From positions 17,126,928 through 17,190,927 of the forward strand of contig CM037867.1 of NCBI GenBank assembly GCA_021292105.1: DNA of 64,000 bases, written 5' to 3'. The translations under genes were made by a program, and so were the position numbers. Numbering within the stretch: the stretch's first letter is position 1; each line of letters starts with the position of its first letter. The notes under the pieces were generated by a model. That model was not told where the DNA came from. It saw nothing but the letters and a program-made list of their open reading frames with translations, and ran no database searches. Source of the DNA: Anadara kagoshimensis (lineage: Eukaryota; Mollusca; Bivalvia; Arcoida; Arcidae). This document shows, in pieces, positions 3,191 to 63,550 of this stretch.

Positions 3191-4990
3191 GTGACCCCTA
3201 CATGAAGTAACACTTACAAATGTAAAACCTATCACAAATTTAACAAAATAATACCAAACAAGTAGTAACGAACCACAAAATGTAATAAATTTGTCAAAAA
3301 TGTATTAAATGTTGGTCACAAATGTAGCAAAATGAAAAACAGGTAATATCATAATTTTCAACATGGATAATATCTCCGTGATAGTTATTGAATAATAATG
3401 ACAAGCACTGTGGTGTCTCTTGTCCTTGCCGTGTAATTTTAAGACTGTAACCCCACCACCTTGTTGGACTCGGTGTTTTACGTGTACCCATTAGCGACTA
3501 CAGATTCTAAAACGTTCACCAGATTGAATTACTGATATAGTGAACAGTCGTTTTCAGCCAAAACATGGCTATGCGCAAGTCTATATGAAGTTCATGCACG
3601 AGAACATTTATAAGTCGTTATTTTTGCGTGTTTCTTATTGGTGACCTCATCTTCGATCGGTTAAATATCAATTATTTATCGTAATTAATATTCCACTTTC
3701 TGTCTCGGACAGTATATTCGCCACTTTCTGATTTCCGATCATGGTCAGACTTTGGTTTAAACCCACGACCTACGACCGTCGGTACCTAAAAGGTAGAATG
3801 CACGCTCCGATTGTGGAAGATTGCGGGAGTGTAACCTTGTCCGGGTCCCACCAAGCCTCAAAAATGTTATTTAGAAATAAAAGTCATTAGGGTCCTTCGG
3901 ATAAGACCTTAAAACCGATGTTCTGTGCAGCGGTTAACGTGGCACGTTAAAGAATCCTCATATTACAATATCGTTAGCAGAGTCAAATTTTCTGTAACTT
4001 CGCATGTAACTGGCGAAGTCTCGATTTAAGCAAAATATTCATTCAGTCAAAGAATCCATGCTCTTGTGTAAGTTACACTTGACGTGGGATGGACATTGAA
4101 GTTTGCGTATCTATCAACAGTCTGTAATGTGTAATGTGTAATCTTTGTAAAATCGAAATGATCAAAATGTAGCACCTCTATACAGACCTTTGATCAGATG
4201 ACTTCTCGGAGGATGGTTAGAGGCGTATATAACTTGACAATAACAAATAAAATAGAAAAAAAAACTTTGAAAATTGCTAAAGAATAAGAACTACCACTTA
4301 AAACCTATATGAATTGCGAAATATCTTGTCATCTCCGGTTTCATTTGAGTTGTTCATCAAGTCAGTTTCATTAAAATTTTCAATAAGCACTTATTTAAGC
4401 AGATTTTTTAATATTCAAGAATAATTTGGAGAACTTTATTCAATTCTGTGTCCCGGATTAATACCAAATATTCAAAATTTAAAGCTTTCATACGCAAATA
4501 TTCGCTTATACAATCCGTGGGGGAGGGGGTAGTTTCAGGTACAATTTCTATCATTTTTTACATTCAAGACTACTAGCTGGTTATTTTTTTTTAAATATTC
4601 ACTATTCAATTATATCATTATAAACTATAATATATTGTGTATTATTACTGGATATATCTTTGTTTTTTTTTTCGGGTCGGTAAGCTACATGTAATTGATA
4701 CCCAATCGCCTATACTTTACCAGCACGTGTAAAGGTTTTCATTTTGATGAAAAACTCTAATTCAGTCAGTTGGAAACTATTACGATCAGATTCCAATGTA
4801 TACAAATCAGCAGAATGATGAAATTTCAGAATTCTGACAAGTCATACGATTGTGTTTTATTCAATGATGCTGTCTTGAACGAAGTTCGCTAATATCAAAA
4901 TCAGTTTGTGATGTTTTTGATGTTGTAGTGGAGAATGCAATTTTTCAGCTATTGCAGACGAAAGCAAGGCTAATATCATACAGTTTCACA
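3191..4990. other. No gene seen; AT-rich, one SINE fragment
   Basis: No domain or plausible exon was found. Positions 3700-3800 resemble the tRNA-like end of the SINE family seen at 25.8 kb (minus orientation, with a TTTAAACCCACGACC-type B-box region). The rest is AT-rich non-coding sequence. Confidence 0.5.
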
Positions 4991-11470: not shown

Positions 11471-11522
11471 TCAGTCGCGCACTGTCCGCTTGGAACAAAA
11501 AGTTTTGTAAATTCGCGCCAGA
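11471..11522 (-). CDS. Terminal exon of last CTLD
   Basis: Acceptor TTTCTTGACTAAG precedes the exon. One nucleotide completes the codon split at the previous donor (TG+T = Cys). The peptide then reads LARIYKTFCSKRTVRD and stops at TGA 11473-11471. The result is Cys-x8-Cys, the spacing expected for the last two cysteines of a C-type lectin-like fold. The exon is short and the phase is the main support. An overlapping open frame (11561-11301) is judged to be a shadow. Confidence 0.5.
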
Positions 11523-12051
11523 CTTAGTCAAGAAATATCGCTGTTGTGTGTAGCATAGCATGTGAAATGGGGTCTATTACACAATCATTAACCATTTTAA
11601 ATTTCTCTCAGTTTTGAATGATGACCTTTAAATTCTTTGTCTGATATGAAAATCGTAGTTATACAAATATTTTTTGTAATTACAATACACTTGAGTACAC
11701 AGAAACAAAAAGTACGGTTTTCCAGACACTTATAATGTTATTCTTTTGCATATGTCCTTGACGTTTGAATACATGAAATTCATAAAATTATGAAAAATGT
11801 CCGCAAATCATTACCTTCAATGTATAAATATCAGTGTATATATAAAACATAGTTTTCATTCTATATATATATATACTAAATCAGTAGAAATGCATAGTAA
11901 TTTGTTGTTTCGGTAACATAAATGTAATATTGAATTGGCAATGACAACAATATATCGATTTATAAATACGTTACACGTTAATATACCATACAACACAAAT
12001 CTTTTGGTGATATTAGACTTCAATAATGCAAAGTTTTACATCTAATTATAC

Positions 12052-12289
12052 CATTTATAAATTAGTTTTTCAGAAATGTAATTTTTAGATACAAGATCAG
12101 CGCATTCATCTCTACCATACGCATCCCATCTAAAATTACTTATCGTAGAATCATAATAACCACAAATGTCCGAATGATCCGGTTGACCTTCAATCCAGTT
12201 AGTATATGTAGCTGGTTTCTGTGTACTTAACCAAATCCAAATATCATTTTCCTTTACTAAACCAATCCAGTAAGAATACCCTTTTGATT
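12052..12289 (-). CDS. CTLD exon, central/C-terminal part
   Basis: Acceptor TTTCTTTAG; the donor is GTATAA after TG at 12052. The peptide begins SKGYSYWIGLVKE and has the WIGL hallmark, then a W-rich loop (WIWLSTQKPATYTNW), EGQPDHSD and the cysteine segment GRDECADL. EGQPD replaces the EPN/QPD sugar-binding loop pattern; QPD in classical lectins favours galactose, but binding here is only inference. It joins the exon at 15432 in matching phase (G+AA = Glu) and the exon at 11522 for its last cysteines. It lies immediately before an intron holding the 66-bp array. Confidence 0.8.
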
Positions 12290-12299
12290 CTAAAGAAAA

Positions 12300-13680
12300 A
12301 CAAATTACAATGTTATTAATATTTATAGAAATAAAAAAAAACGTTTTGTTTATATTCCAAAACAATTCAATAGAATGAAATACCCTATAAAATCTAAAAG
12401 ACAAATAACATTGTTATAATAATTTCAAAGTCATGTACAACAATTATACTAAAACACTGTATCCATTAATGGTTGAGGAATGTGAAATCATTAAATGTTT
12501 CAGTTTAAACTTTCTCACCTATTAGATACAAGAGGGAATATAAATTCACATTCAATAATTGAGCTTCATCTGAATATAACATAAAAAGTCGAACAATTTG
12601 GACTGGTCGGAATATTACCTATTGTCTGAACATAAATAGCAGTGGTGGCAAACTGTTTATGATTATAACAAGGATATGTTTAGACATATAACATTATGGT
12701 TCTGTTTACATCTTCAAAACAATTTAGTAATAACTTGGGATAACCACTGCTACTCCTTAACTATTTGAACTTCCATGAGTTAAGAGCATTTCTAAATTAC
12801 CATTTATATTGCATATTTGTTTTCATTGAATGGAGTGCGGTGTGTTTTTATATATCATATCATTCATTATACATCACTCATAAATACTAAATTTGATTCG
12901 ATGAGAGCAATCACATGGTGAGGATTGAAATATCATATTTCCTTCATGCGATAAAGTTTCACTGTAATACATCCCTTATTCGGAACACACCTATACGTCA
13001 CAATGATATGAGGTCATCGATAGAGAATCGGTCATGACTTTTGACCAATATGAACACCCCCTAACATGTCACATTTCTCTCGTGGTTCAATGTCGGATAA
13101 TATAACTTGCTGCGGGTAAACGTTCATACTTCCCTCTTTCAAAGACAAAAGACAATAAATGTATAATAATAATTGTTTGGGTTTACCATCCCTTATCTTT
13201 TTGAACGCAAATGAGTAAAGAAAATTTCTTATTATCATTCATATTGCATACTTTTATTCTTTTTACCGAGTACAGTGTGTTTTTGTAAAGCAATACCACG
13301 TGTAAGTAACTATGTTTTGATATAATGGAACAATATCTTTCTTTTAAATGTATTACGTATACTTTTCAATTTAAAATAAATAAGAAGATGCTTAAACATC
13401 ATATTGATGTATTGGAAATATAAAAAACCGATTACGTGTATTGTGTATAAGGTCAACGTTAAATAACCTAGCAAACAACTGACCAATTTGCTTGAACTTT
13501 AAATGAATAATTATTATAGACAAGTACATTGATGCAAATACTTTACAAAGCTTTATTATGTTCACATGGGAACACTAATTTTAGAAACATACCAGTATCT
13601 TCAATAAATAACCGAGAGGTTAAGAAACTAAGGAACACATTAAAATAAAGACAGCTGTTATAGGTTGAAGGTGAAGTATC
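12300..13680. other. Intron sequence, no gene seen
   Basis: AT-rich, with no domain signal. It is the part of the 3.1-kb intron between the CTLD exons at 12289 and 15432 that lies next to the 66-bp array. Confidence 0.45.
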
Positions 13681-13689
13681 TACTTACTG

Positions 13690-15320
13690 CAAATCTTAAC
13701 AGTGCCGATGTTTTGGCTGGGCCTCCCTGATATGTAAATTTCTAATGAAAGGTCAAAGGGATATGTCAGTGCCGATGTATTGACTGAGACTCCATTATAT
13801 GTATATCTTCCTAACGGACGGCCAACGGACATGTCAGTGACAATGTAATAGCTGTGCCTCTCTTACAAGAATTTTCCTCATGGGAGGTCAAACGGACGTG
13901 TCAGTACCGATGTATTGACTAGGCCTCTCTTATATAAATATATTCCTAAAGAAAGATCAAACGGACATGTAAGTGCCGATGTATTGACTGGACCTCCCCT
14001 AAATGTTTATTCCTAACGGTAGGTCAAACGGACATGTTAGTGTCGATGTATTGGTTGTGCCTCCCTTATATGCTTATATGTATATTCCCAACGGAGGTTT
14101 AAAAAGATATGCCAGTACCGATGTATTGGTTGGCCTCCCTTACATGTATATTCTCAACAAAAGTTTAAACGGTTATGGCAATACCGATATATAAGTTGGC
14201 CTCCTTTATATGAATATTCCTAATGAAAAGTCAAACGGACATGTTAGTGCCGATGTATTGGACGGGCCTCCCTTAAATGTATATATTCCCAAACGGAGGT
14301 CAAACAGATATGTCAGTACCGGTGTATTGGTTGGCCTCCCTTATATGAATATCCCTAATGAAAGGTCAAACGGACATGTCAGTGACAATGTATTGGCTAA
14401 GTCTTTTTTATGTATATATTTTGACGGAAGGTCAAACGGACATGTCAGTGCTAATGGACTGACTAAGCCTCCCTTATATGAATATTCCTAATGAAAGGTC
14501 AAACGGACATGTCAGTGCCGATGTATTGGCTAAGTCTTTTTTATGTACATATTTTGACGAAATGTCAAACGGACATGTCAGTGACGATATATTTGCTGTG
14601 CCTCGCTTCTATGAATATTCCTGAAAAAGTCAAACGGACATGTTAGTGACGATGTATTGGCTGTGCCTCCCTTATATTAATATTTCTAAAAAAAATGTCA
14701 AACGGACATGTTAGTGTCGATGTATTGGCTGGACCTCCCTTATAAGTATATTCCCAACGGAGGGTCAAACACATATGTCAGTACCGATGTATTGGTTGTC
14801 CTCCCATATATGAATATCCCTAATCAAAGCTTAAACGGACATGTCAGTGTCGATGAATTGGCTGAGTCTTCTTTTTTATGCATATATTTTGACGGAAGGT
14901 CAAACGGACTAAGCCTCCCTTATATGAATATTCCTAACGGAAGGTCAAACGGACATGTCAGTGCCGATGTATTGGCTGGGCCTTCCTTATATGTATATCT
15001 TTCCAACAGAAGGTCAAACGGATATGTCAGTGCCGATGTATTGGATGGGCCTTCTTTATATGTTTATATTCCCAGCAGATGGTCAAACGGATATGTCAGT
15101 GCCTATGTATTGGATGGGCCTTCCTTGAATGTATATCTTCCCAACAGAAGGTCAAACGGATATGTCAGTGCCGATGTATCGGATAGGTCTTCCTTATATG
15201 TATATATTCCCAACAGATGGTCAAACGGATATATCAGTGTCGATGTATTGGATGGGCCTTCCTTATATGTATATTTTCCCAACAGAAGATCAAACGGACA
15301 CGCAGTGTTGTTTTCCAATA
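13690..15320. repeat. 66-bp tandem repeat array
   Basis: About 24 units of 65-69 bp, each with GTCAAACGGACATGTCAGTG, CGATGTATTGGCTGGGCCTC and a TATATGTATATTCC-type stretch. The unit length is close to 22 codons, so frames stay open on both strands (plus 14708-15340; minus 15384-15103). Unit length drifts, which breaks the frames elsewhere. The last units (14935-15300) are the most alike. It lies inside an intron of the minus-strand lectin gene. Confidence 0.92.
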
Positions 15321-15431
15321 TGCATGCAGAGATTGAATAGAAATTGAAAGCTTTATAAGACTGGAAATTGTAAGAAAAAGTCATCTTTACGATGTATTCC
15401 TATGACACAATTAGATATAAAGAAACTCTAC

Positions 15432-15522
15432 CTCTTGCTCGTTGTCTTAGTATCGGCAGTAAATTTTCATGAATTTCTGGTGTATCTATTGTAAGAAGAT
15501 TTCCATATATCTCACTTATTTC
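15432..15522 (-). CDS. CTLD exon with GNLLTID motif
   Basis: A 91-nt exon with acceptor ATGTTTAG and donor GTAGAG. The peptide EISEIYGNLLTIDTPEIHEN continues LLPILRQRAR. YGNLLTID-x-x-E is the standard second strand/helix block of a CTLD (G-x-L-x-x-I-x-S-x-x-E). The usual cysteine before this block is absent. It is phase 0 in, phase 1 out, matching both neighbours, and the same length as the equivalent exon at 21285-21375, so the two CTLDs probably arose by duplication. Confidence 0.8.
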
Positions 15523-16233
15523 CTAAACATATACAAGAAAAATTAAATATCTTACTGTCAAGGACATATTAATCAATTAATTTTGTTCAAAAAACAGTAA
15601 TAAAATTCAATTTATGAAAAATAGTATGTTTGTTTCGGCGATTTTCCATGCGACTGTTTCCAAACATTGGTTTCTTGCAGTCATTTTTGACAAAAATATT
15701 AGTACATATTTTGTTATTTTGGCTTATTTTATAACTTTTCTGACCAAATCAAACACACACATACCGTTCCATGTCCAAACCACAACTCCAATAGGAAAGC
15801 AAGAATTTAGTTTCAACATTTATCTCAAAATAAGCAGATATATAATAAAACAATGGCAACATAAGGAAATAATACTAAGATTGCTAGGAATCATTTTAGA
15901 AAAATGAGGCGAAAACTTGATGCTAACAAAATAAATAAAAGTATAAATAAAACAATTCGACAGTCTAATAAATGATGAAAAAAGACGGCATTTGTTTTTT
16001 CGGTGTTTCTCAAATATTTTCCTCTATTAAATCAAACAGAAACACACCGATACATGTCCCTAACATGATATCAAAAGGAAAAAACAAGTTTCAGAATTGA
16101 TAAATTACACGTTCCTCACACGGAAAGCTATATCATGTACTCTGAAAGGATACCGTCTGTTTAACTAGCTACACCCTGAATCTCGTTCAAATTTAAGGAA
16201 CTGATCTAAGTATAAGGTTTTACAATTACATAC

Positions 16234-16347
16234 CTTAGCTCTCCAAAAAAGTTCCTTCTTTCTAGAGAACAGTATACACGATTTCCCTACTTCAGTCCAT
16301 CCATACGGACAAAGCGAGACAGGAATATATTTTTGCTTCTGTGGAAT
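16234..16347 (-). CDS. First exon of the last CTLD
   Basis: Acceptor TTTGTTTTAATCAG, donor GTATGTAAT. The peptide IPQKQKYIPVSLCPYGWTEV continues GKSCILFSRKKELFWRAK. CPYGW followed by a second Cys and W-x-A is the N-terminal CTLD signature. It leaves in phase 0, in agreement with the next exon. Entry is unclear. The preceding exon ends in phase 2, so either an upstream weak acceptor (AAAAG before 16382) is used, giving GA+G, or this exon belongs to a separate lectin gene. Confidence 0.78.
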
Positions 16348-16623
16348 CTGATTAAAACAAATAAACAGTATCTCATTAAACCTTTTAAAATGTACCACTT
16401 AATAAATATAGGGCTGCAATCATTTTGTAAATTACATCACGAGTACTATGAAAACTTTGTTTTTGAGTGGGGTACTCCTTAAGGGTAGCACTTACTCTTC
16501 AGTCAGCTGCACCCGGAAAGTGGAGTATCTTAAAAATAATTTTTTTGCTTATGTTCATTATTATCACACATGATGATTTTTATTGTTAACTTAATCTCAA
16601 TCGAAGAAAAATATTTGACTTAC

Positions 16624-16849
16624 TCAATTTGACATACTGATCCTGAGTGGGTATAACAAAGAGCATCAACTAATCTGTACGTATGACCATTCACAAAACC
16701 TATTTTAACACAACCGTTAACAGCTAGATCATTTGATTCTCTGAGAAAATATCCGTAAGTGTCTTTCAATTCCAAAGCAGAATCTGTTTCTATCCATTTG
16801 AATTCATTTTTGTAAGCATAACTATAAAGTCCAATCCAGAATGCTATAT
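16624..16849 (-). CDS. CTLD exon, C-terminal half, possible gene end
   Basis: Acceptor TTTTTTTCCAG. The peptide starts IAFWIGLYSYAYKNEFKW and ends CYTHSGSVCQIE, with the WIGL block and the final Cys-x7-Cys pair. The end is ambiguous: after CQI the sequence is GAGTAAGTC, which can be read as Glu-stop (stop at 16622-16620) or as a strong donor GTAAGT after GA. The stop reading gives a natural CTLD C-terminus. It joins the exon at 21285 with matching phase (C+AT = His). Confidence 0.82.
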
Positions 16850-17239
16850 CTGGAAAAAAATGGTTGATCATAAAATGCAAAATCATAAAATACAGATATG
16901 CCTATACCTGACGATGTCTAGCAACATATATTTAAAGAAATATTGAATTGATACTCTTTTTGTGGTGTGTCACGTACATACAGTATCGAATAATTTAGTA
17001 ATAAGGCGGCGCATGAAAAAGGGTCATCGCAATCCTGGCAATTGCGAACTTAATAAAGCCAAAGTATCGCTGCCGCCGCAATTTGTTCACATGCTGTTGC
17101 TTTGCTGCTTCTATTTTAATTATTTCAAACATAGCTATATAATCGGCATTTTTGTTTTTGTGTCTGTATCTAAACCTTATTACATGTGTTGTAGATTCAT
17201 AGAATGTACGGGTTATATATATTTTCATTGTTAAAATTA

Positions 17240-18430
17240 TACCCATAACAAACTTACAATCTTAAGATTTATTAGTATAACGTGAACGTAAGTGAATGCA
17301 AGTTTCTCTCTGATAAAATCTGGGATCAGATGATAATAGTTACTTTTAATGATAGCAATTACATGTCTATAAATGCCTCTTCTTATTTTCTTTTTTTTAA
17401 TACTTTGTTAGTTCCGAATTGGCAGCGTTTTTTCATGACCCCTTTGGGAAGATTGCCAAATTATACCAGGTTTAAAAGCTGAAGGGTAGATAAGTATGAA
17501 AAAAAGTTTTTCAAATTGAAACATAAAATATTTGTTGTTGTTATAAACATTGAAAGGAATTCAGTGACTGGTAGATGCATATTTGAGAATGTAGCATTAT
17601 ATCGTTCCATTCTAGATCTTTGATGGTAATTCAAGACTATTTAAATTTTATGTACAAAGAAGTGAGGCTACTTTTTATTATCAAATAAACCTAAACGTCG
17701 ACAGGTATCAGTATCTCAATCCTGTAAGTATCTATAGTTAGAAAAATGTGTGATAGATATTTTTAAACGTAATTTTACACAAAACATATGTGTTATGTAC
17801 TGTTTGTTCAGAGAAACAAGTGATGTCACCCATGATCAAAAGAAAAGACAAATATAAATCATTTTACACCAATTTATAAACGAACTACGACTGTTTTGAA
17901 AAAAAAATGACAAAACGGTTGGGCGAAATAGATTAATCTTTATTGTTGATATTACACACCGTTGTTTCTCAATTGAACTATCCTGTACGAATTATCAAGA
18001 ACGTAAATAGAAAACATAATTTTGGAAGATACTTAAAAAAATTAAACTAACGAATTAATACATATACATATCCAAGATACGTATAAAAATGAGTGTCTTT
18101 AAGCAGGAAAAATTTCAATTCAGCGTTGGTTAAAAAAATGAAAAAATGTGTTCTGTCAATATGAAACAAATTTTAGTAAAACCTAATGACAAAAGTCCAT
18201 TTACAAAGAAAAAAAAACTAAATATAAAATGTAGCAAATGCCAACAGTGATAATTTGAAGAAAACCTAGTACACAAAAACAAGTAACAATTAGTTTAACA
18301 AAAGAAAACTGTTCCGAAACATGGTAAAGGTGGAAATGTAATAAAAGCTACCACAACCGTTATTCTCAATCAAATCTCACACGTAGTCAATATTGGACAG
18401 TTCACCAGCCAAACTATTATCGGAGAAGAT
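17240..18430. other. Intron sequence, no gene seen
   Basis: AT-rich intron between the CTLD exons at 16849 and 21285. No repeats or domains were recognised before the Penelope-like element begins. Confidence 0.45.
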
Positions 18431-18439
18431 ATCCAGGGG

Positions 18440-20700
18440 ATAATCAAAACTACTTTGAACCAACATATGATTATTCCTGCCATTACGGGGAAGAGGATAT
18501 CTATGAGAACAAACATCTAAACACTTATTAATCTTCTAGTCCTTTTTAGGGAGACGCCCAACCATCCATCCCTTAGGTGATAAAACGAAATCAATCAAAC
18601 ATTATCAATTTATCAAGCCGCAAATTATATGTATACGAAATTAAAATTTCAAAAAAGGACTAAAATCAAGACCAACACCAAAATCTCACAAAATTCAAGT
18701 AATAGAAAACGATATTTAAACTGTTTTTAGAAGATTAAGATAAACTTAGTTTTATTAAGACAATAAAACAAAAGAGTCATGCATAGCCAGGAACAAAGGA
18801 ACCTTAACTCTAGAAAAAGGAAGAGTCCAGGAATTAGATCAATATATTGAACATTTAAAAAAAAATGATTGACCTCAGTTTATTATCAAAAAGTTGCAAC
18901 TTCACCAAAAAGCGATGGAAATCATTTATGATGATAAAAATATAATTATCAAAGAAGCTGACAAAAATGCTGTTGTAATCATGGGTAAAGAATATTACCG
19001 TAAATTATGAATTAAAACGATAATAAAGATAACAACGATATAAGGTCACCTAAACTCGGCAAAATTGTATATGATCCACAAAAACCGATAAGAAGATAAG
19101 GGAAAAAAATTATCTAGTCTATTTTCATTGCAAGGAAAACATCTTTTATGGTTTTTTTTAAATTCCATAAAAGCAATATAAATAATAATGCATGTTCGAA
19201 TGGTAAATCAAACTATATTGAAATTTCTCGACTAAATGATCTTAAACTACGACCGATTGTAGCAGGACCCGTTGGTGAAGCACGTAGTCTCAGTAACTTT
19301 ATCGATATTCTCCTAAAACCATATGACAATAAAATCCAAAGTTATATACGGCATATAGTTGATTTCTTAAATAATTTACCATCAGACACTGTAGAAAATT
19401 CTATTTCACTTTCATTGGATGTAACAAATCATTATTTAAATATTCCGCATTGATTTCGGAAAAAAGTAAAAAAAATATTGGTTAAACAAACACACAGAAC
19501 TCTTGCCTGAACGAATACAGAAATACTTCATCATCAATGGTCTACAATTCATTCTTGAAAACAATTATATACATTTTGATAATAATCGTTACAAGCAAAG
19601 ATGGGAACAGCCATGGGAACAAAAGTTGCTCCTATATGCCTTCGGATATTTAGAAGAAAATATGTATGAACAAATACAATCAATAATCTGTCAAGAAGAA
19701 CGAACTTATATTGAATCAAACTGCAAAAGATTCCTAGATGACTGTTTTATCATTTGAAAAAAAAGACAGAGATTCACTTAACTTATTTCATTCTTTCTTC
19801 ATCCTTCAATCACTTTCACAATGGAATCTGACCCCATTCAATTACCGTTCTTAGCCGTTCTAGTGAAAATAGATCGTAAACAAAATATCCAACCGGATAT
19901 GTTCTACAAAACTACGGATACAAAACAATGTCTGGAATGTGAATCTTGGCACCTGCGACACAGAGTATACCTTATACTTTAGCTGGGAGACTTTGCATAT
20001 TAATATCAAAGAACCATACACTTAACACTAGATTACAGGGATTAAATGGATTCTTTTTAGAAGCAATTTATCCTGAACAATTAATCAGTCATGGTATTTC
20101 AAAAGCTAGATCTACTTGAAAATAACTACGAAGGATTCAAATAAGAAATAATAAAAAACATCTCGTTTGTGTCTACATTCTATCCAAAGAACCCTAAATT
20201 GTTTAAGCACATCTACAACAGCATTCCAATGTTCATAACAAACGTATTCGAAAAAATGCTGACAAAAGCAAGATTCTGTTCTAACGAAGAATTCTATGAA
20301 ATCAAAAGATGTGGAAGATCAAATTGTGGAACAAGTATAAACTTAGAAGAAGGTCAATCAAAACGCCTTATTGATGGTTTTCTTTTCAACGTCAATGCAA
20401 ACATGGACTGCAGGAGTGATAATTTGATTTATATCATCAGATGTCAGTGTCGTGGAGAACATTATGTGGGTCAAACAGAACAAGTTGCGACTTAGAATCA
20501 CAGTCTATAGGCAACAAATACATCAACCAGAATATGATCAAATACATCTTAGTGCACATATTAGACAATGTGCTCGGGAAAAAACCAAACATTTACCATT
20601 TCCCCATGTACTTATTCATGAAAAAATCACTAAGAGGAAAAGAGAAATCAGAGTCCTTTTTTAAAACGAAATTGAGAGCCAAATTAAATGCAAGTTAAGC
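18440..20700 (+). mobile_element. Degenerate Penelope-like retroelement
   Basis: Broken coding remnant with reverse transcriptase and GIY-YIG endonuclease, the hallmark pair of Penelope-like elements. Pieces in order: IIIKEADKNAVVIMGKEYY (18943-18999); RPIVAGPVGEARSLSNFIDI and SLSLDVTNHYLNIPH (19148-19453); the FILENNYIHFDNNRY block and RFLDDCFII, the FLDD catalytic box (19503-19757); then LIYIIRCQCRGEHYVGQT (20420-20480), where LIY/YVG replace GIY/YIG. At least six frameshifts or stops interrupt it, so it is dead. It sits in an intron, antisense to the lectin gene. Confidence 0.88.
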
Positions 20701-21284
20701 AGTAGGACAATTACACTCATTTCCCATTATGACGTCAAAATCACGTCATGTGACTTTAACATAGCTACAATAATCAACTGTATACTCCTGTATACTTTAT
20801 AAATTTAAACTAATATCAAGAAAACTAGTTGAGTAAAATGTAGTAATACATTTTTTTAATTCCATTTAAGTCTTATCATTATTTTGGATTATGTACTACC
20901 ATGTGCAAGACTTATTATTTAAACTATATATATATATAGTGTGTGTGTCACATTTTCAAAAAATTTAAAGTGACTATTTTACTAATAAAATACTAAAACA
21001 CACAGATACGTTATCTATTTTAACTCTTTGAAAGCAGCAGAAGGCTTTAAACCTTCCTCCGCAAAGAAGCATTTGTTTAATATAATTTGTTTTAGTATTC
21101 TATTCGTAAACTATTTATCCAATTCGTCCGACACATTAGAAGCAAAATGGTCAATGTTCAACTCACAATCCCAAAACAAAAAAGAAACTAGCAAATGAAG
21201 TGGGACTCCACTAGGCAAGCGAGACTTGGTTTTCCAAAAAAGATAATTTATTATGACATAATGCGTCTTATTTAGTTTACTTAC

Positions 21285-21375
21285 GCATTTCAAAATTGTC
21301 GAATATTGATGTCAGATATTTGTAGGGTTTAGAATCATCTACAGTAGCCAGGTTCCCTATTTCACGACAGCCAAC
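21285..21375 (-). CDS. CTLD exon with GNLATVD motif
   Basis: A 91-nt exon with acceptor TTTTCTCAG and donor GTAAGT. The peptide starts VGCREIGNLATVDDSKPYKY and ends with FEM plus one nucleotide. Joined to the exon at 21982 it gives W-x-E-A-x-x-x-C-x-x-x-G-N-L, the canonical CTLD spacing. Phase 0 in and phase 1 out match both neighbours. It was too short to stand out as an open frame; splice sites and motif define it. Confidence 0.85.
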
Positions 21376-21611
21376 CTGAGAAAAGGTTAATACATATCCA
21401 TACAACTTTTTAAATGATAAATATTTTTATGACAAAGTCCATCAACAAACATACTTTTGCTTCATTAATCCTGTAATAAATATTTTACTACAGGTTTAAG
21501 AGAAAACGATGCCTTCCAAATTTATCGCCGCATATATCCTATATCAGATATGTGAGTAGATAACATACAAACGTTGCTTAACATAGTGGTTACCTGTAAT
21601 TATATACAATC

Positions 21612-21765
21612 AAACCTGTCTATAAAGGCCACCCAAGGATCGGGTAAAAGTAACCTTAATATACAGGTGGCCTTTTTACAAAGGTTCAAATAATATGAAT
21701 AATAAACAATTGGGAGACAATTCTACTGGTCAGTATAAACAGATAGTCTCTTTATAGAAGTGGCT
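21612..21765. repeat. Dispersed repeat with TCTATAAAGGCCACC
   Basis: Contains CCTGTCTATAAAGGCCACC and the complement-like AGGTGGCCTTTTTACAAAGG, an imperfect palindrome. Diverged relatives appear at 22685-22870 and 52090-52160 (GGTGGTCCTTATATAGAGGT), indicating a low-copy dispersed family of unknown class. Confidence 0.55.
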
Positions 21766-21981
21766 TTTCCCATAATTTTATTTTTAAACTTGTGTATGAT
21801 TGATATAGTTTACATTGGCAACAATCATTATGACATCAAACGTATAATCGCAAAATTGTGTCATTCGATATGTAAAAGGGATTTTCTTGCTCCTGTAGAT
21901 CTATCATGCTGTCACATTCGCAGTTTGTTAATCATGACTAATCTTATTTTAATGTTATGTACAAAACTCATGAAATATTAC

Positions 21982-22070
21982 CTCTGCTTCATACCAGTTC
22001 TTAGGTTCCATGCTTATTTTAAAACACCCTTTATTTAAGTCGCTCCAATCTATGCAGCAGTACCCAATGC
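21982..22070 (-). CDS. First exon of the first C-terminal CTLD
   Basis: Acceptor TATATATTAAG, donor GTAATATT. The peptide starts IGYCCIDWSDLNKGCFKISM and ends NWYEAE: Cys, W, second Cys and the W-x-E-A motif of a CTLD start. It enters in phase 1 (G+GC = Gly from the coiled-coil exon at 23526) and leaves in phase 0. It directly follows the coiled coil, as in oligomeric lectins. Confidence 0.8.
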
Positions 22071-23525
22071 CTTAATATATAAAGAATAAATTTACTTTTA
22101 AATTTTATTAATTGAAAGTTCTGTTAAATATTAACAGTTAAATCTCAAGATCAAATTGCGTTTTTAATTTTTAAACCGAAGGTCTGGAGTTTAAGCATGA
22201 AAATAACATTCCTTTGTCTTTATTTTTATATTGCATAAATGTAACATTCAATGACTAGAAGGTCACACGAGTCCATGTAGATATTATAACCGGTGTTTTT
22301 TTTTCCAATTAATTATCAACTGAAACTTTAAAACATGTAGTTGGTTACAAATGAGAACAAACCACAGTCTAAACTGATAGTAGATTCAAGACAACAAAAT
22401 GCAAATACATATTGGAAACGTTGGCTATACGGAATTAAGACAGACAATCTCCGGTATAGCATTTTTGTAGAGACACAACCATCCCACGTTTTACACATTC
22501 AGTAAATATTCAATGACTGTGGATTTGACCAATATGCAATGTCTTTATTTTATCAGGATTTTGTATCCGAAACTATTCACAAAGATTTGGATTCCATCAT
22601 GTCCATTTAGTGCAATTGAGCAATAAGGAATAATTTTGGAATTAACTAACACAATCTATCATTCTTAGTTGATATACAATAATTTTATAATAGACCTTGC
22701 CTATAAAAACCTTATGCGGGAATCTGTAAAAGTGACCTTTTTAAGCTCGTGTCCTTTTATATACGGGATTAAAAACATGTTTAATGCTCAGAGACGACTT
22801 TATTGGCCTTTACAATCTGGTGACTCTTATGTAGATGTATCTTTTAAGAGAGTGACTGTATTAAAACAAACCTGTTTCTTTTAAACCTTTGTAACAATAA
22901 TCTGAAACAGAAAAATTATAATGAAGTGAAATTAAAACTTGACGTATTCTTACACTCAGAATACTGTGCCAACATTTCATATCTTATTTATATTTTACTT
23001 ATTTTGAATACTTATGTAATGGCAGATTTTAAAATGATTTAATTATAATAAAATATTCACTATAACATAAATATTCTCACATAAATCTAAAATGTCAATT
23101 TTATTTAAAAAATCTACCACTATATTTGATTATTTTCTTGTTTAAGAGTCTTAGTAACACACATGCGTAAATATACACAAAAACTTTGTCCAATGTAATT
23201 TGAGTTCTCAGAGACCTAAAAATAATATAATACCCGTATTGATGTCGCGGCACTAGACGAATATTTCGTAATAGTGCTCGAACCAATATTGTGAATTAAA
23301 TTTTATTCAAGGGGTTGAACAAATTACAGATTATACCTACAATAATGTTACATCACTTAGACGTCTGTTTCGGAAAAAAATACTTAAACCAAAATCAAAG
23401 TGACGTGATGCAACCGCATTTGTGCTCCTTCATTTACCACTTTTAAAGGTTTTCGCTTTGTTTGTTAATTGTGATTTGAACATATATGCATTTTTAATGA
23501 AATTAATGTAAATCTTTATTATTAC

Positions 23526-23600
23526 CATTTTCCATTTTTTCCTTAAAAGCCATCACTTTCTTATTTAAAAGCGTCGTCTGAAATCTTGCTTGTGCTACTT
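23526..23600 (-). CDS. Coiled-coil exon 2
   Basis: 75-nt exon, acceptor ATCTATTTTTAG, donor GTAATAAT. The peptide VAQARFQTTLLNKKVMAFKE continues KMEN. It is charged and heptad-like and lacks Pro and Gly. Phase 1 in and out agrees with both neighbours. It probably forms a stalk that oligomerises the lectin heads. It has no close family identity of its own; its place between the hydrophobic exon and the CTLD is the argument. Confidence 0.65.
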
Positions 23601-24102
23601 CTAAAAATAGATATCAAGAAATAAATATGATAAAAAAAATTCTTCATTAAATAATTTATTTAATTAAAATTTATTTTTGTAGTGAAAACTTCAGATATAA
23701 AAATGACAAAAGAAACCTAGGATACATTATAATACGCTAAAAGTTCTAGATGTAAAACAAAGTGTTAATCTGTCATTTTCGGTAAACATTTACAAATTGA
23801 CAAATAGCAAAGGTTTTAAAAAAATGAACAATATTGTTGCATACAATGGAGATCAACGATGCTTCACGTTATGAAACGCATTATATTTGTGCAGGACGTT
23901 TTGATAAAATAATAGCTTTATCTTCGTTTGTTACTTATTAAAATGAAGTAAAATCAATGTAGGCATCATAGTCCGATTATCTAAATGCAATTGTATGCTT
24001 TGAGTACTGAAACAATCTGAATGGTATTTCGAATAGAAAAAACCGTTTTTGTTATTTTTGCTACTGTCTATCTATTTCCATGAACACGACAATTTACTGT
24101 AC

Positions 24103-24156
24103 CTTGTTTATTCTTTAGTGATTCTTTTTGTAACTGTCGATGAAGTTTAAAAAAAT
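24103..24156 (-). CDS. Coiled-coil exon 1
   Basis: 54-nt exon, acceptor AATGTGTTTTCAG, donor GTACAG. The peptide FFKLHRQLQKESLKNKQ is amphipathic. It enters as G+AT = Asp from the hydrophobic exon at 25400 and leaves as G+AA = Glu. With exon 2 it gives about 42 residues of stalk. Confidence 0.62.
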
Positions 24157-24439
24157 CTGAAAACACATTTCATAATATTCATAATTAAGATTTTTAAACA
24201 TATCGAACATAAACAGTCCAATCCTTTTCAAATCAAAATAATTAAGGAAGTGAGGTCATGTGATCCGGAAGACTAAGCATACCCAATCTAAATGCTATTT
24301 GTGAAATCAATTATTGGATTAAAAGGAACATGAAACTTTAGCATTAAATATATCCTGGATATTTTTTTATCAAGGTACAAGGCACTAAGCAATGATTTCA
24401 AAATCATTAAACATATAACAAGATGGTGTAGCTAGCTAG

Positions 24440-24575
24440 ACAAACGTTGTTTTCTCTTCCGTAGCACATGGTCTCGCGTGTCAAACCTAACTTGTCGGTT
24501 CTAAAGTTTTTTCTTTTGCTTTTGGGTTTTAATTCGGACATGGATTAGTATTTGTTTTTCATAACAACGGAATTA
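24440..24575 (+). mobile_element. Retroelement 3' tail fragment
   Basis: Carries CTAACTTGTCGGTTCTAAAG and ATTCGGACATGGATTAGTAT, the two blocks found at the 3' end of the retroelement copies at 50385, 58440 and 62455. No coding part is left. Confidence 0.65.
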
Positions 24576-24672
24576 ATTACGTACTGTATGAACATATATT
24601 TATATCTACATCGGGATTGGTTGTTTTCTCAATGTGAATCAATTTAGCCATTAAGTGTGTATTTGGGTTGTC

Positions 24673-24676
<4 letters not shown>

Positions 24677-24722
<46 letters not shown>
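24677..24722. repeat. (TG)n microsatellite
   Basis: About 22 uninterrupted TG units. Confidence 0.97.
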
Positions 24723-24723
<1 letters not shown>

Positions 24724-25399
24724 ACAAAACGTCATTTACTTTACAAATATTTTGTGTATATGTAAGCAACATTTTTGTGTAACATTATTTGTAAATCAAA
24801 AATAGTAAACATAGATGATTGATAAAATGATAAAAGTATCGTGTTCTGTTTTCTAACCGAAGTATAAACCAAGTCGCAATTTCTCTTAAAGCAATATAAA
24901 TTGCTTAATTTATTGTGTAATGACTTCATATTTACTATTGTCTAAATTTGCTGCTAGTTAAACCCCCTTATGAAAAGTTTTTCTTTAGCTAAATTTGGTA
25001 AAATATATTTAGCTCTTCAAGTACCTTTTCAACATCTTAAAAAAATTTAGAAATATACTATAATTGTCTAAATTTCCTACAAGTTAAAATTTGAAATTTC
25101 TCAAAAACTAAGGTATACTCTCTCATGCAAAGTATTTCCTTGGCTTAATTTGGGTACCTTTGGGTAGCTTTTCAGCATCTTCAAAATAATTTTGGTTTCA
25201 TAATTTTGGTCCAAGCACTACAAGGCCGTCTAGTGCTGTAAAATTAAAACTGGTATAATATGTAATTTCACAATTTTGGTCTAAAAGCTACTGATGAGGA
25301 ATTGTATTGCGAAACAGCCGTCTAATGTTGTAAAGTTACCACAGGCATAATATGAAATAGCATTTTTTGAAATTTTACTCTATGTTAGAAATATCGTAC

Positions 25400-25498
25400 C
25401 TTCCGATTCGACGATGTTAGTTAAAATATTAGCTACCATCAGAAAAACGCTGACAAATGTTATCAATCCTGCCATTTTCCAAAGCTTTTTTGATTTGT
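25400..25498 (-). CDS. Exon with extra transmembrane/signal-anchor segment
   Basis: Acceptor TTTTTTTCAG, donor GTACGA. The peptide reads KSKKLWK, then MAGLITFVSVFLMVANIL and TNIVESE. A basic patch followed by a 19-21 residue hydrophobic run and an acidic stalk is the layout of a type II signal anchor (positive-inside rule). The ATG at 25475 could start a separate type II lectin. Equally, the frame is open through the ATG back into the exon at 26182 (A+AC = Asn), which continues from TM7 of the receptor. That would make this an eighth membrane helix, placing the coiled coil and lectins outside the cell. Confidence 0.72.
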
Positions 25499-25821
25499 CT
25501 GAAAAAAATTATTTTATTTGTTAATGTCCAAATGTGGTATTGATCTTATGATGATATGTTTGATTTATGATATTTCAACTAATTAATAACTACCCCGGGG
25601 GTATTATATGCCATCTTCAGTTATTTTTACTTTACATATACAAGTTGAAGAATGTAAAAAAACAATAACATATGTATGTTATAGTGAATATTTTTTTCAA
25701 ACAATACAAGGTTTTACTGAATCGATTTTTTGTAGTTAGTAATAGCTAACATTAATAGTTGCCATACTGTGTTTGGTATTATACCGAAGTTGAATTGAGT
25801 AATGATGTTTTACGCCCCAGG

Positions 25822-26125
25822 CAAGGATATTTTACTTATATCAAGACATCACCAGCTATCAGCAAAGTTGTAGAAAGTTTGCCTGTTCGTTGCGCTGATG
25901 ACTTACAGCGGGATTCTTTACCGTGCTAAGCCTACCGTGACAGGGGATCTCGTTTATTTTAAGTTCCAATCCGAAAGAACCGTGACTTTCATTTCGTAAT
26001 TTTCAAGTGCTTCGCGGCTGAACTACTACCAACTTATTAAGTCTTTGCTCAGAACCAGTCGAGATTCGAACCCCCGGACTGCCACTTTCAGAGTGAGCAC
26101 CCTACCAACAGAGCTACAGTGATAT
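25822..26125 (-). repeat. tRNA-derived SINE, best copy
   Basis: On the minus strand it starts with a tRNA-like head (GTAGCTCTGTTGGTAGGGTG, then GGGGGTTCGAATCTC, A and B boxes at tRNA spacing). The body contains CGGTAGGCTTAGCACGGT and the tail is TGGTGATGTCTTGATATAAG. Four other copies share head, body and tail. Confidence 0.8.
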
Positions 26126-26181
26126 TTACCCTGGGTTGTGTTATTTTATCATTTGTGGGTTTATCAATTATAATTACGTAC

Positions 26182-26224
26182 TTTTGGAGTTCGTTTTCAA
26201 GTTGTTTAAAACCTTTTCCAGAAC
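26182..26224 (-). CDS. 43-nt linker exon after TM7
   Basis: Acceptor CTGTTTTAG, donor GTACGT. The peptide is VLEKVLNNLKTNSK. It enters in phase 0 as TM7 leaves, and exits with one nucleotide that completes Asn in the exon at 25498. Following NPFLYTFIDLQ, the amphipathic VLEKVLNNL fits helix 8 of a GPCR. The exon is small enough that a chance match of splice sites cannot be excluded, but only one phase combination is open and it is the one that fits. Confidence 0.6.
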
Positions 26225-26747
26225 CTAAAACAGTTAAACAATATCATTTTTGAACAATATCTTAACTTTATCATTATACAGATGTGGATAAAGCCTCTTA
26301 TCTCTCAAAGCGCTGTTTCGACCCAGACTAAATAATCTGGGAATTTACTTCGTACCTAATTGATAAAATTACATCTGTTCTTATGTTACTTTTTTTTATT
26401 TACTTTAATAAACAGAATTAAAAATCTTCATTAAGATAGAAATGTCAAAAAAGTCTAATGGTAGAACAACATAATAACCATTAAGACAGTGTTTGAGCAA
26501 ATAGTGCAGTGCAGGATCAATTTAAAGTATGAATAAAACAGCCTCAAGCAAATTTTGAGTCTGCCTTAAAGCTCAACTCTATATATTTACCGCCTTTTCA
26601 AATGACCAGAAATATTATATCGTTATGAACTTTTATTCAATGAATATAATTTTAACTTGTATATAAGTACAACCTATTATTAAATACTTTAACTGGATTG
26701 TTTTCATTGCTTTTATAGATAGATTAAGTCGTATTTGTATAACAAAC

Positions 26748-26866
26748 CTGTAAGTCTATAAAAGTGTATAAAAATGGGTTGATTGCAGAATTGATTGGAA
26801 GAACAAATACAACTGTCCAAGCATAAACTGTCCTTTTCATATCATATCCAAACATAGCCATTACAC
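26748..26866 (-). CDS. GPCR transmembrane helix 7 exon
   Basis: Acceptor ACATTTGTAG, donor GTTTGT. Joined by one nucleotide to the main receptor exon (MG then VMAMFGYDMKRTVYAW). It holds the third extracellular loop and TM7 with VLPINSAINPFLYTF, where NPFLY is the NPxxY motif. If the intron were retained the protein would stop seven codons later. The exon is too short to show as a long open frame but is unmistakable by motif. Confidence 0.9.
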
Positions 26867-27479
26867 CTACAAATGTAAATATTAACAATATAGATGGTTA
26901 AGAGGCGGGAAACATAACCTAACATAAACTTTATTAATAATAAATAATCAAAACAAGAATAATGAGGTAAAAAAGATTTTTTAAAAATAAAACCTCTAAG
27001 ATGATGTTTAAATAATGTTGAAGTGAATTAAAGCATGTATTTATTCTTCAAGCCAAAACATATGTACTACTCGATATATGAAAGTAACAAGAAAATGAAC
27101 CTAACTCAATTTTTAAGTATTAATAGTAATTTTAATTATGATAAAAAAGTAGAAAAAAAATACCCCAGACCAGTCAAAAGAAATTTTGAATTATTGGTCG
27201 ATATATGTGTTTCTTTCTGGTTTTTCATTAACTTGTATGATTAGTGTTAATGTCTGTGTTAGTGGTGTTAGTGGACAATTTATTTTTATTTGCAAGTATG
27301 AGCGTATATTAAAGATAATTTTATTTAAATTTGATGTGTGAAAAATTTCCAATTATAAGAACTCGGAGACCAGATATTGTTTAATTATTTCATTGTAATT
27401 CAAATTTTCTAAAGAGATGGATAGACCATAATATGTTTTAGGTTTTAATCGAAGAAGCAACCAATTACTTTCGACATAC

Positions 27480-29175
27480 CCATTGTTCCAATAGGAATCC
27501 AGCACAAACAATCTGTTGCTACCACTAATGAAAGTCTCTTTGCTACTTCAATGTGCTTCAATTGTCCTGTTCTTGCTACTTTAGACGATATTTTTTTCAC
27601 TTCGTATACTATCGGGATCTGCGCGAGTGCAACAAAAAGAAAAGTTAGAAAATTGAAAACTACGAAGATTAAAAATGAATAAATCCATCCATCCGTTCTT
27701 TCTTTCCTCAACGGAAGAGATACACAAACACCAGAAGCAGAGTAATACTTCTCAAAAATGAAATGCGGAATCAATGCAATAGAAAGCGAAACAATCCAAG
27801 AAATAACGCTTCCAATAACAGCGTCTTTTCTGGATATTTTATGTTCTTTAAACGGAAATTTCACAGCTAAATATCGAGCAAACGTTATAAGTGATATTGT
27901 TAAAACTGACACCTCTGATGAAAGAACTGATATTATACCAAGCACTGCACAAAGTTTGCTATTTCGCCATTTGTACTCCCTCCAGATATATTCGCCTCGA
28001 AATACTGCATCACTAGTTCCTATCGATATTAGATATACTCCTATTAAAGTGTCTGCTAGAGTTAGATTCCCGACCAAAACAGAAAATGTATCTTGATAAA
28101 GTCCTCCTTTGCTTCTAATTCTATAAATCAAAACCATTATATTACCAATTACAGCTACTATACCAATTACCCAAAGAAAAATACGGAGAACAATATTTTC
28201 AATTAAATCTTCGCAACTTGATAGGTCAAATTGGGGAGCTATGCAGCGGTCATCTGACATTTGTTTGGGTTTCACACAGCATAATGCGAAGGTGTCGCTA
28301 TAAATCAGCTTCAGGTTCAAATTGTTCTGAAAAATTTTCCCGATATATAGATATCATTTCCGCGAGTATCCAAAACCTGGAGAGATATCATACTAGAAAA
28401 TAATTCTGTTTCTAAAATGTTGATCCTATTTTGTGATATATCTAAGTTTACCAAATGCGTTAGATTGTTAAATACTTGTGGATATAGTTCTTGTATTTGA
28501 GATCCAGTTATGGTAAGATTCACACAATTATGTATTCCAATAAAAGCCCCCGCTTCTATTCTTTCTAGCGAATGGCAACGCATCCAAAGTGTTTTCAACT
28601 GTGATAAATTTATGAAGACTTTATTTGGCAGTATTGGTTGTTGAACGTCTGTTAACTCCAGAGTATCAAGGTCTAGAAATTTCTCAAAAGTTTTATCAGA
28701 CCAGATTCGAGAAATACCTTTCCTGATAAAACTAGTTTTCTGAGATATTTGTGACGTCCACGTAAAACATTTGATTTGATAATCTGTCTAAACCTGTGAT
28801 ATGAGTTGAATGATATGATCTTAAAATGTTGTGTAGATGAATCTATTAAATTGAATATTTCATACTCTACACTACATTGTAACTCTGGTAATTGTGTATA
28901 ATTGATAAACCGTGAAAAAAGATGTGTTTCCCATTTAACATATACCAAATCCTGTATTTCGTAAAAATACTGGTTATGTATATTTTTCTGACACGATAGA
29001 ATAATACTGATGTATTGATTCTGATGCTCTTTATATTCGCAATGCATTTCATCGTAACTGTCGTAACACTGATCCACTCCATCACATATCTGTTCGGATG
29101 ATAAACAAATCCACTCCATACTGGCATCTAGACATTTTGAAATACCAATACAAGATACATTCTGTATACCCTTTT
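27480..29175 (-). CDS. GRL101/relaxin-receptor-like GPCR: LDLa, LRR, TM1-TM6
   Basis: A single 1.7-kb exon. The LDLa module at 29155-29040 has CIGISKC, WICLSSEQICDGVDQC and YDSYDEMHC, with all six Cys and the D-x-S-D-E calcium box. Leucine-rich repeats follow (about 28760-28350; NLTHLVNLDISQNRI is one), then the hinge CCVKPKQMSDDRCIAP and SSCEDLIENIVLRIFLWVIG. The 7TM core has GNIMVL (TM1), LTLAD (TM2), Cys before TM3, FARYLAVKFPF (TM3 end; D/E of DRY is Ala), CWIP (TM6). Peptide or protein hormone receptors of this type couple LRR binding to the 7TM domain through the hinge. Two single-base frame breaks, near 28730 and 28335, interrupt the LRR part. The donor is GTATGT after ATGG. Confidence 0.9.
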
Positions 29176-36715: not shown

Positions 36716-37312
36716 TCATCTTGTGTGTCATATAATAGATTAAAGTCCACTCCAAAAATTATTAAAATTTTGCTTAACCTCTTGTCTGCGGTTTCACAAC
36801 AAATAAACATCGAATCGATTATTTTAAAAAAGGCCATATGTAGAAAACCCATTTGTTTTCGTTAAAACTAGATATGCATTTTCTTTGGATGTTTAATAAT
36901 AAAGTTTTATCAGAAAGATTGATTGTATTTACTAGTTATATATAAATATAATCAACTATAAATAACCCAAACCTTGTTTGAAGAATAGGAAGGATTAGTC
37001 AATATTGTATATAATCATAATTTTCACATCAGATGAACATCTCGAATTAAAAACGTGAGCAATTTTTATTGAGGATTTGTTCTGTTCAATTTGATTTAAG
37101 CAAGATTTCACATTGACCAATGCGTTTGTAATTGGATTATAACAATACATGTTTGTTGATTTTTTTATATCGTTTATCAATTAAACACTTGAAAACTAAA
37201 TTTAAATTTTGGGCCTGGTTGACTAAGATCTAGAATCACATAAAGACCCATCCTGAAAAGTTTATTGAGTAAACATACTTTGATAACATGAATGCTAACA
37301 TCTTTTCCTTAC

Positions 37313-37587
37313 CAACTAAGCATAAATTTGTGTATCTAATCAGTTGAGACTCAGGCACGACGGTCTTCCCTTTTGTACCTAGGATTGCATGCATTTTAAT
37401 AATATTCTTATGTATTCCGCTAGTCCAGTATATGATGCTTGCTTTTTTATCCACAGCAAACGTCCGCAGATCTGCTGGGCCCGTAATTTGTGGTATTATA
37501 ACTTCCTCATGTTTGTTTTCAACGTTAATTCTATAAATTCCAGTGTCTTTGATGTCTAATTTATTTGCTCGATGGTAGTAAATGAAT
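37313..37587 (-). CDS. YWTD propeller exon, two blades
   Basis: Acceptor TTCTTTATTTTAG, donor GTAAGG. The peptide starts FIYYHRANKLDIKDTGIYRI and includes GPADLRTFAVDKKASIIYWT, a clear LDL-receptor class B (YWTD) blade. It enters with one nucleotide completing GG+A = Gly from the exon at 44124 and leaves with one nucleotide. A 25-bp inverted repeat unit sits only 8 bp upstream of the acceptor side (37595-37619). Confidence 0.85.
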
Positions 37588-40350: not shown

Positions 40351-40361
40351 CACTCAAACCA

Positions 40362-63060: not shown

Positions 63061-63108
63061 TGATGCTACGAGATTTTGTCTTACATTAAGTTGATGAACA
63101 GTATTTAC

Positions 63109-63387
63109 CCTCTCCTTGCAAGAAGTCTTTCTCTTCGTAGACAGTTGAATTTATTGTGCATGTGCACATGAAAGGCAAAGCATTTGTATAACAATTTGCA
63201 TCTTCAATGGTTTCAGTTTTAACATTTAAAGCGCCACAGTCTTCTCCAACTCCAGCATTATCTGGCTGACATGAGTCCCAAAACGTTATTGTAACATTTC
63301 CCCCATCGACCCATTTCCATTCGCCTTCGTTTGCTACATCACTCATACCAACCCATGTATGCTGCATCTTTTCCGGTAGCACTCTCA
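63109..63387 (-). CDS. CTLD exon, C-terminal half
   Basis: Acceptor TTATTTTATAG, donor GTAAAT. The peptide RVLPEKMQHTWVGMSDVANE continues GEWKWVDGGNVTITFWDSCQ, PDNAGVGEDCGALNVKTETI and EDANCYTNALPFMC. It has WVGMSD, W-x-W-V-D-G, W-D-S-x-Q-P-D-N and C-A-L-style blocks of a classical CTLD; the QPDN loop is where canonical lectins bind calcium and sugar, so this domain may bind carbohydrate. Its N-terminal half was not found and may lie beyond the window. Confidence 0.88.
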
Positions 63388-63550
63388 CTATAAAATAAAC
63401 ATTAAGAGAACCAGCCGTGGTATAACAAACAATATACCCATCGTTGTTCCGTTTTAATGACGTACTCCCTTGCTTATCTTATGGCGTCACTCTAATAAAA
63501 TCATTTATTTCATTGGAGGAAATCTCAAAAGCCGAAATGTTCGAATAGAC

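Follow-up and report, generated by a model that had tools for sequence, protein, structure and literature searches.

The 64,000-nucleotide stretch of Anadara kagoshimensis DNA analyzed here (assembly GCA_021292105.1, contig CM037867.1, positions 17,126,928 to 17,190,927 of the forward strand; hereafter the window) carries on its minus strand a chain of exons that begins with a receptor resembling GRL101 and the LGR family, and runs on beyond the seventh transmembrane span (TM7) into exons for a further hydrophobic span (TM8) and for C-type lectin-like domains (CTLDs). From the sequence, we consider it very probable that these exons form one gene, in which a GRL101/LGR-like class A receptor continues past TM7 into TM8 and a lectin arm. 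The chain comprises the following exons, with all coordinates given as positions in the window.

27480..29175, minus strand: exon A, encoding a degenerate LDLa-like domain, leucine-rich repeats (LRRs), the hinge and TM1-TM6; end phase 1.
26748..26866, minus strand: TM7 exon, NSAINPFLYTFIDLQ, with an NPxxY-type motif by eye; end phase 0.
26182..26224, minus strand: tail exon of 43 nt, amphipathic and helix-8-like, VLEKVLNNLKTNSK; phase 0 to 1.
25400..25498, minus strand: TM8 exon of 99 nt, with the basic patch KSKKLWK and then the hydrophobic span; phase 1 to 1.
24103..24156, minus strand: coiled-coil-like exon 1, 54 nt; phase 1-1; present in the paralogues C7, C4, C14 and C9.
23526..23600, minus strand: coiled-coil-like exon 2, 75 nt; phase 1-1; clear matches in C7, C4 and C14.
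22872..22901, minus strand: short linker exon, YCYKGLKET, 30 nt; phase 1-1.
21982..22070, minus strand: first C-terminal CTLD, exon 1, IGYCCIDWSDLNKGCFKISMEPKNWYEAE, Lectin_C; the exon most frequently matched downstream of 42 receptor loci.
21285..21375, minus strand: first C-terminal CTLD, exon 2.
16624..16849, minus strand: first C-terminal CTLD, exon 3, ending GA/GTAAGT in phase 2 and not at a TAA; matched at 13 of 42 loci.
16234..16347, minus strand: second C-terminal CTLD, exon 1, with one A fewer than the in-frame copy 2.
15432..15522, minus strand: second C-terminal CTLD, exon 2.
12042..12289, minus strand: second C-terminal CTLD, exon 3, with the stop codon TAG.

The original prediction derived the continuation past TM7 from three introns (26748/26224, 26182/25498 and 25400/24156), and their GT-AG ends and phases (0, 1 and 1) were verified again in the letters. 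Joining the exons also reproduced the open frame that had been claimed, i.e., linker, basic patch, hydrophobic segment, coiled coil and CTLD, with a spliced product that reads ...NPFLYTFIDLQ-VLEKVLNNLKTNSK-NKSKKLWKMAGLITFVSVFLMVANILTNIVESE-DFFKLHRQLQKESLKNKQ... across the introns. The left edge of the stretch proposed for this layout (11471..29175) lies some 570 bases past the stop TAG. In the joined model, Pfam recovered 7tm_1 over the full profile (E 1.2e-24) and Lectin_C in two stretches (whole-protein E 6.4e-14); LRR_8 was found before the seven-transmembrane (7TM) region (E 5.5e-14; 6.8e-12 in the joined model). The LDLa profile Ldl_recept_a scored E 0.56, which fell short of the cut-off, and it was not listed for the joined model; by eye, the arrangement of the cysteines resembles that of an LDLa module. 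The best Protein Data Bank (PDB) match of the 7TM query was relaxin receptor 1 (E 5.2e-39), with 7tmw and 7fii among the best. At the DRY-type position after TM3 (27840-27900, minus strand), we read FARYLAV by eye, the acidic residue being missing; the Tegillarca granosa relative P0001 has IARYLAV at this position, likewise by eye and without the acidic residue.

To follow the receptor and lectin exons beyond the window, we compared paralogues within the species' own genome (1.115 Gb, 36 contigs). The 7TM query yielded 135 matches, corresponding to 127 loci once 8 second fragments were subtracted, and the lectin query yielded 77. Forty-two related loci on 15 contigs had at least 54% 7TM identity, a cut chosen after the data had been seen, and these loci are not independent, as 8 belong to the array on C11, the contig of the window, and 9 lie on C17. 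A lectin match was present downstream, on the same strand and within 30 kb, at 41 of the 42 loci, the nearest being 2.0-16.4 kb away; at none of the 42 was a lectin match found upstream or on the opposite strand. Seen from the lectin side, 76 of the 77 matches had a related 7TM upstream. The same order of receptor and lectin was also found at dispersed loci on 14 contigs other than C11. None of the 85 more distant 7TM loci (<54%) had any of 56 lectin matches within 30 kb, the 21 matches not used being those of the C11 array; a phase-0 donor after TM7 was present in all five distant paralogues read (to about 0.5-1.2 kb past the donor). With a second query, the first CTLD of C14, the same loci were recovered together with one generic CTLD.

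Nine loci were then scanned past TM7, i.e., the window, C7 (95%), C4 (89%), C14 (84%), C9 (76%), C17 (75%), C8 (71%), C19 L036 (75%) and C13 L037 (75%), of which the first seven entered blind scans controlled by 200 kb on both strands (400 kb of strand). For the tail exon, we required phase 0 to 1, 37-49 nt, splice signals and at least two lysine or arginine residues; the donor rule had been loosened after earlier scans to admit the weak C17 donor. Exactly one candidate was obtained at each of the seven loci, and all were 43 nt long, with the donors GTACGT, GTAAGT (three loci), GTATGT (two loci) and GTATGC. The control gave 24 matches in its 400 kb of strand; six measured 43 nt, and one of these was the true copy. 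The TM8 exon, sought as a hydrophobic exon of phase 1 to 1 and 84-120 nt, was likewise matched at all seven loci (99 nt in six, 111 nt in C17), with one extra match in C9; the control gave 7 matches per 400 kb of strand, and the sole match of 99 nt was the true copy. The seven loci thus stand well above the control. In the six paralogues of the blind scans exon A is open over 573-630 amino acids, and the tail and TM8 exons are open there too. Further downstream, the linker exon 22872..22901 had a single, weak paralogue match, in C4 (DYCHRRLKENS, E 0.067). The intron between the tail and TM8 exons contains, by eye, a tRNA-like head of a short interspersed nuclear element (26040-26120, minus strand), at which ARAGORN calls no tRNA gene.

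The splice sites past TM7 were confirmed; what the original prediction had overlooked is that a tail exon left unspliced at 26182 soon meets an in-frame stop (VLEKVLNNLKTNSKST, then stop, after two residues, at 26174), which offers a simple alternative end. On that basis, the locus could consist of two neighbouring genes that were always copied as a pair: one for a receptor whose frame closes at 26174, the other for a lectin, secreted or type II, that begins at ATG 25475 and carries a signal peptide. The ATG directly precedes a signal-peptide-like hydrophobic stretch in the TM8 exon, and the annotated T. granosa relatives P0001 and P0002 both stop soon after TM7. However, the position of this ATG is occupied by GTG (Val) in C7 and in L030, and the C17 exon is devoid of any Met, so that an own start codon for a separate lectin is not conserved among relatives; the alternative that had been put forward, a separate type II lectin with its start at ATG 25475, is without that start in these three paralogues. 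Moreover, the TM8 exon has an acceptor in front and a phase-1 open frame at seven loci (the phase being a scan requirement), and the residues ahead of the ATG are similar between loci (KSKKLWK, SKKLLK, RTLWK, SAKLWK). The argument that the bases before the ATG are coding rests on this open frame and likeness, because a codon bias signal is absent. The stop, too, is not conserved, as the C14 frame stays open over 16 codons or more beyond the tail donor, whereas the donor at +43 is kept, and the coupling at 41 of 42 loci has constant strand and order. Two separate genes are, in our judgement, improbable.

A further reading, compatible with a single eight-span gene, is that both forms are made: splicing would give the eight-span receptor, and a seven-span one would arise where the intron after the tail exon is retained or polyadenylation comes early. 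Retention of the intron would add the two residues and the stop in the window, and reading through the tail donor also leads to an early stop in C7, C4 and C9, although not in C14 with its open read-through. We regard the production of both forms as conceivable, with the balance tipped against it; early-ending forms or a second promoter are possible.

The lectin arm of the putative eight-span receptor is longer than first described. The C-terminal CTLD was correctly recognized, but its continuation beyond the apparent stop at 16620 into a second CTLD had been missed. This stop sits in the donor consensus GA/GTAAGT. The evidence for the second CTLD comes from the window, from copy 2 and from the first bases of the homologous C14 exon: C14 has a phase-2 donor at the matching place, beyond which come an acceptor and the opening of the homologous next exon, and in copy 2 the frame continues through the second CTLD to the TAG (12042 in the window). 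The QPD motif is a mark of galactose-type binding. The second CTLD was recognized as Lectin_C (E 5.6e-6), with scavenger receptor with C-type lectin (2ox8) as its best PDB match and its GQPD aligned to the GQPD of 2ox8; in the first CTLD, neither EPN nor QPD was seen by eye. Two repetitive features lie within the introns of this arm: a minisatellite in the gene's last intron (13722-15276, units mostly of 65-69 bases) and, by eye, a remnant resembling a reverse-transcriptase element in the large intron within the first C-terminal CTLD (18300-20700, plus strand).

We next compared nonsynonymous (dN) and synonymous (dS) divergence between the two parts. Among the window, C4 and C14, the combined tail, TM8, coiled-coil and first CTLD-exon codons gave dN 0.25-0.31 and dS 0.72-0.83, and the TM7 exon gave dN 0.02-0.09 and dS 0.56-0.82; dN/dS of the C-terminal exons was 0.30-0.42. 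Because dS is alike, these values indicate that the receptor part and the C-terminal arm are of similar age, and, as judged from the substitutions, the arm evolves under purifying selection that is less strict. The window and C7 differed by dN 0.12 and dS 0.21, and the tail and pre-ATG codons showed dN/dS of 0.34-0.88 in the 8 pairs, out of 10, for which it was defined. Short coiled-coil exons alone prove little, because some single-exon pairs have dN > dS (CC2 in C4-C7 and C14-C7, CC1 in C4-C7). Across the receptor and first-CTLD exons, the window and its nearest tandem copy differ by one CT3 substitution and one exon A run-length base; with exons almost identical, this copy is uninformative on selection.

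Approximately 22 residues separate TM7 from TM8. At the five loci computed, the 15 residues before TM8 include 3-6 positive and 0 negative ones, and the region after the span is neutral or acidic. By the positive-inside rule and these flanking charges, the lectins are predicted to lie outside, and the C terminus encoded beyond the TM8 exon is accordingly predicted to be extracellular.

Upstream of the receptor exons, the window contains another lectin domain.

63089..63478, minus strand: upstream CTLD, Lectin_C E 2.9e-12.

Judging from its position and from related loci, this CTLD probably belongs to the N-terminal ectodomain encoded by the same receptor gene, with putative splicing. Among the 150 best CTLD matches in the genome, one lay upstream on the same strand within 50 kb at 35 of the 42 receptor loci, and none lay downstream of the receptor at any of the 42. 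GRL101-like receptors of the Biomphalaria sudanica SudRes2 cluster carry an N-terminal C-type lectin (CTL) domain according to the consulted part of PMC12297450, and the upstream CTLDs fit this arrangement. The same architecture, together with the tandem array on C11, raises the question of whether the downstream lectin exons might instead belong to the next receptor in the array, as its N-terminal lectin. The presence of a different, upstream CTLD at 35 of 42 loci speaks against this, and we give the idea next to no credence. A gene boundary of this kind, beyond which the next tandem receptor would start with the downstream lectin, was rejected, since the dispersed loci keep the same order. 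Between the upstream CTLDs and the LDLa-like exon, several exons resembling YWTD/LDLR propeller repeats were noted by eye (37236-49052, minus strand); Pfam found nothing in the seven frames of this region that were submitted. At the other end of the window, a long tandem repeat of the type LLVEEQLAISSQ, open over most of its length, occupies 209-3205 on the plus strand.

The original prediction overlooked that the frame of receptor exon A is closed in the window copy. Here, exon A is split over three frames by 1-nt shortfalls in G runs at 28724 and 28342, and a third shortfall affects the A run near 16335 in exon 1 of the second CTLD. The two missing G are the sole differences of exon A from copy L029 (C11:16.78 Mb), which is open over 586 amino acids; the shortfall at 28724 is common to copy 2 (C11:17.02 Mb), that at 28342 is not, and there are no exon A substitutions relative to either copy. 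L029 itself lacks one A where its TM8 exon ends, and in L030 (C11:17.38 Mb) a difference in run length early in the TM8 exon puts the frame off before the span. On this pattern, the run-length shortfalls are likely to be consensus errors of the assembly. The alternative is that the window holds a decayed, non-functional copy, as might be expected from three 1-nt frameshifts relative to near-identical copies. We raised its odds because the shared 28724 shortfall may be a real, inherited mutation. Nevertheless, all three defects are run-length differences and exon A has no substitution, a pattern typical of long-read consensus errors, and no C11 copy read is open throughout, an outcome that errors would also give. 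Decay of the window copy therefore appears doubtful to us. The C11 array itself spans approximately 16.5-17.4 Mb and contains at least 8 receptor units in both orientations, among them that of the window; the window copy and the next tandem copy are about 132.6 kb apart and 0.87% different. The array reflects either recent duplication or haplotypes placed side by side in the assembly.

Taken together, the linkage among paralogues, the fixed exons and the lost ATG support one eight-span receptor with a C-terminal lectin, as the original prediction had proposed. A number of observations weigh against it, beginning with the identity cut set after the fact, the dependence among the 42 loci and the loosened donor rule described above. 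Twenty-eight of the 41 coupled loci were matched by the first or second CTLD exon only, and the third exon was matched at 13. One receptor of the 42, C17:26328671 (minus strand), has no detected lectin, and one lectin match, C17:32826266 (minus strand), has no detected receptor. At C19 L036 and C13 L037, of which 4.0 and 2.8 kb were read past TM7, neither a TM8 exon nor a convincing tail exon was found; the lectin matches there are 9-11 kb off, i.e., outside the pieces read. The tail exon of C17 shows little sequence similarity and its donor is weak, the window copy bears three frameshifting run-length differences, Met is kept at the position of ATG 25475 in C4, C14 and C9, and the roughly 23 bases ahead of this ATG lack a third-position excess of changes. 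The last two points would also suit two separate genes. Finally, no annotated protein joining the receptor and lectin parts was found, searches of protein databases, run once with the lectin and once with the C-terminal portion of the joined model, retrieved no relative, and the closest annotated protein, from the blood cockle T. granosa, also of the Arcidae (81% over the 7TM query), stops soon after TM7 with a different tail. The loci C19 L036 and C13 L037 and the absent third-position signal led us to lower our confidence in a fused gene and to raise that in two neighbouring genes to the levels expressed above.

The exon order, the phases, their conservation and the linkage are features of the genomic sequence itself; from them we infer a single mRNA that joins the parts, a TM8 that spans the membrane, and the mechanism outlined below. 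The most likely product, as deduced from the exons, has the layout [N-terminal CTLD]-LDLa-like-LRR-7TM-helix 8-TM8-coiled coil-CTLD-CTLD, with lectins outside at both ends. TM7 would end inside the cell and be followed by the helix-8-like segment, about 8 residues of basic patch, TM8, a coiled-coil stalk and the two CTLDs; TM8 would return the C terminus to the outside, so that both ends of the protein would be extracellular. The coiled coil may bring receptors together as dimers or trimers, and the C-terminal lectins may act as a built-in co-receptor for glycans, microbial or self. With the lectin arm joined to helix 8, glycan binding could be coupled to the 7TM core, alongside the N-terminal CTLD/LDLa/LRR ectodomain. 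A cytoplasmic tail of about 22 residues would leave little room for the usual switch-off by kinases and arrestins. The boldest form of this reading, in which about 40 class A receptors have eight spans and lectins at both ends, and the C-terminal arm directly gates the receptor, we place at even chances, a level lowered because so many loci (28 of 41) were matched by the first or second CTLD exon only.

If true, a large family in which the receptor tail has been replaced by a span and an outside lectin arm would represent a new receptor layout that needs another way of being switched off. It would also be a hint that clams have a repertoire of glycan-sensing receptors, perhaps with an immune role, and would serve as a warning that gene predictors may truncate such genes after TM7. 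In the open PubMed Central (PMC) literature, a scope outside which subscription papers and preprints fall, we found no eight-span G-protein-coupled receptor (GPCR) with a C-type lectin and no paper that links Tegillarca granosa with GPCRs, C-type lectins and expansion together.

In the textbook view, class A receptors span the membrane seven times and recruit kinases and arrestins through a cytoplasmic tail, and the relaxin and glycoprotein-hormone receptors of the LGR family end in an intracellular tail. The predicted receptor is like the LGR family in combining a 7TM core with an LRR ectodomain, and unlike it in having TM8 and a lectin arm after TM7. Type II coiled-coil C-type lectins, such as those resembling the asialoglycoprotein receptor, consist of a basic patch, a single span, a coiled-coil neck and a CTLD. 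The C-terminal part described here resembles such a lectin fused on, and differs from it in having a frame continuous with the receptor and a start Met that three paralogues do not keep. The nearest known layouts are the LGR receptors, the oomycete GPCR-bigrams and the GRL101-like receptors (Lymnaea GRL101; SudRes2, PMC12297450). As far as the consulted part of that source describes them, the GRL101-like receptors share the LRRs, the class A 7TM and clustered paralogues; their LDLa domain has a degenerate, LDLa-like counterpart here, and their N-terminal CTLD a probable one in the upstream CTLD. The consulted parts of PMC12297450 and of the GRL101 account in PMC8018223 mention no eight-span layout with a C-terminal lectin, whereas both the eighth span and the lectin are predicted here. 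The oomycete GPCR-bigrams, according to the part of PMC6033456 that was consulted, join a 7TM to a catalytic C-terminal domain predicted to be intracellular. The candidate clam receptor is similar to them in joining a 7TM to an extra C-terminal domain; unlike in the bigrams, however, its C-terminal domains are Lectin_C domains, predicted to be extracellular behind TM8.

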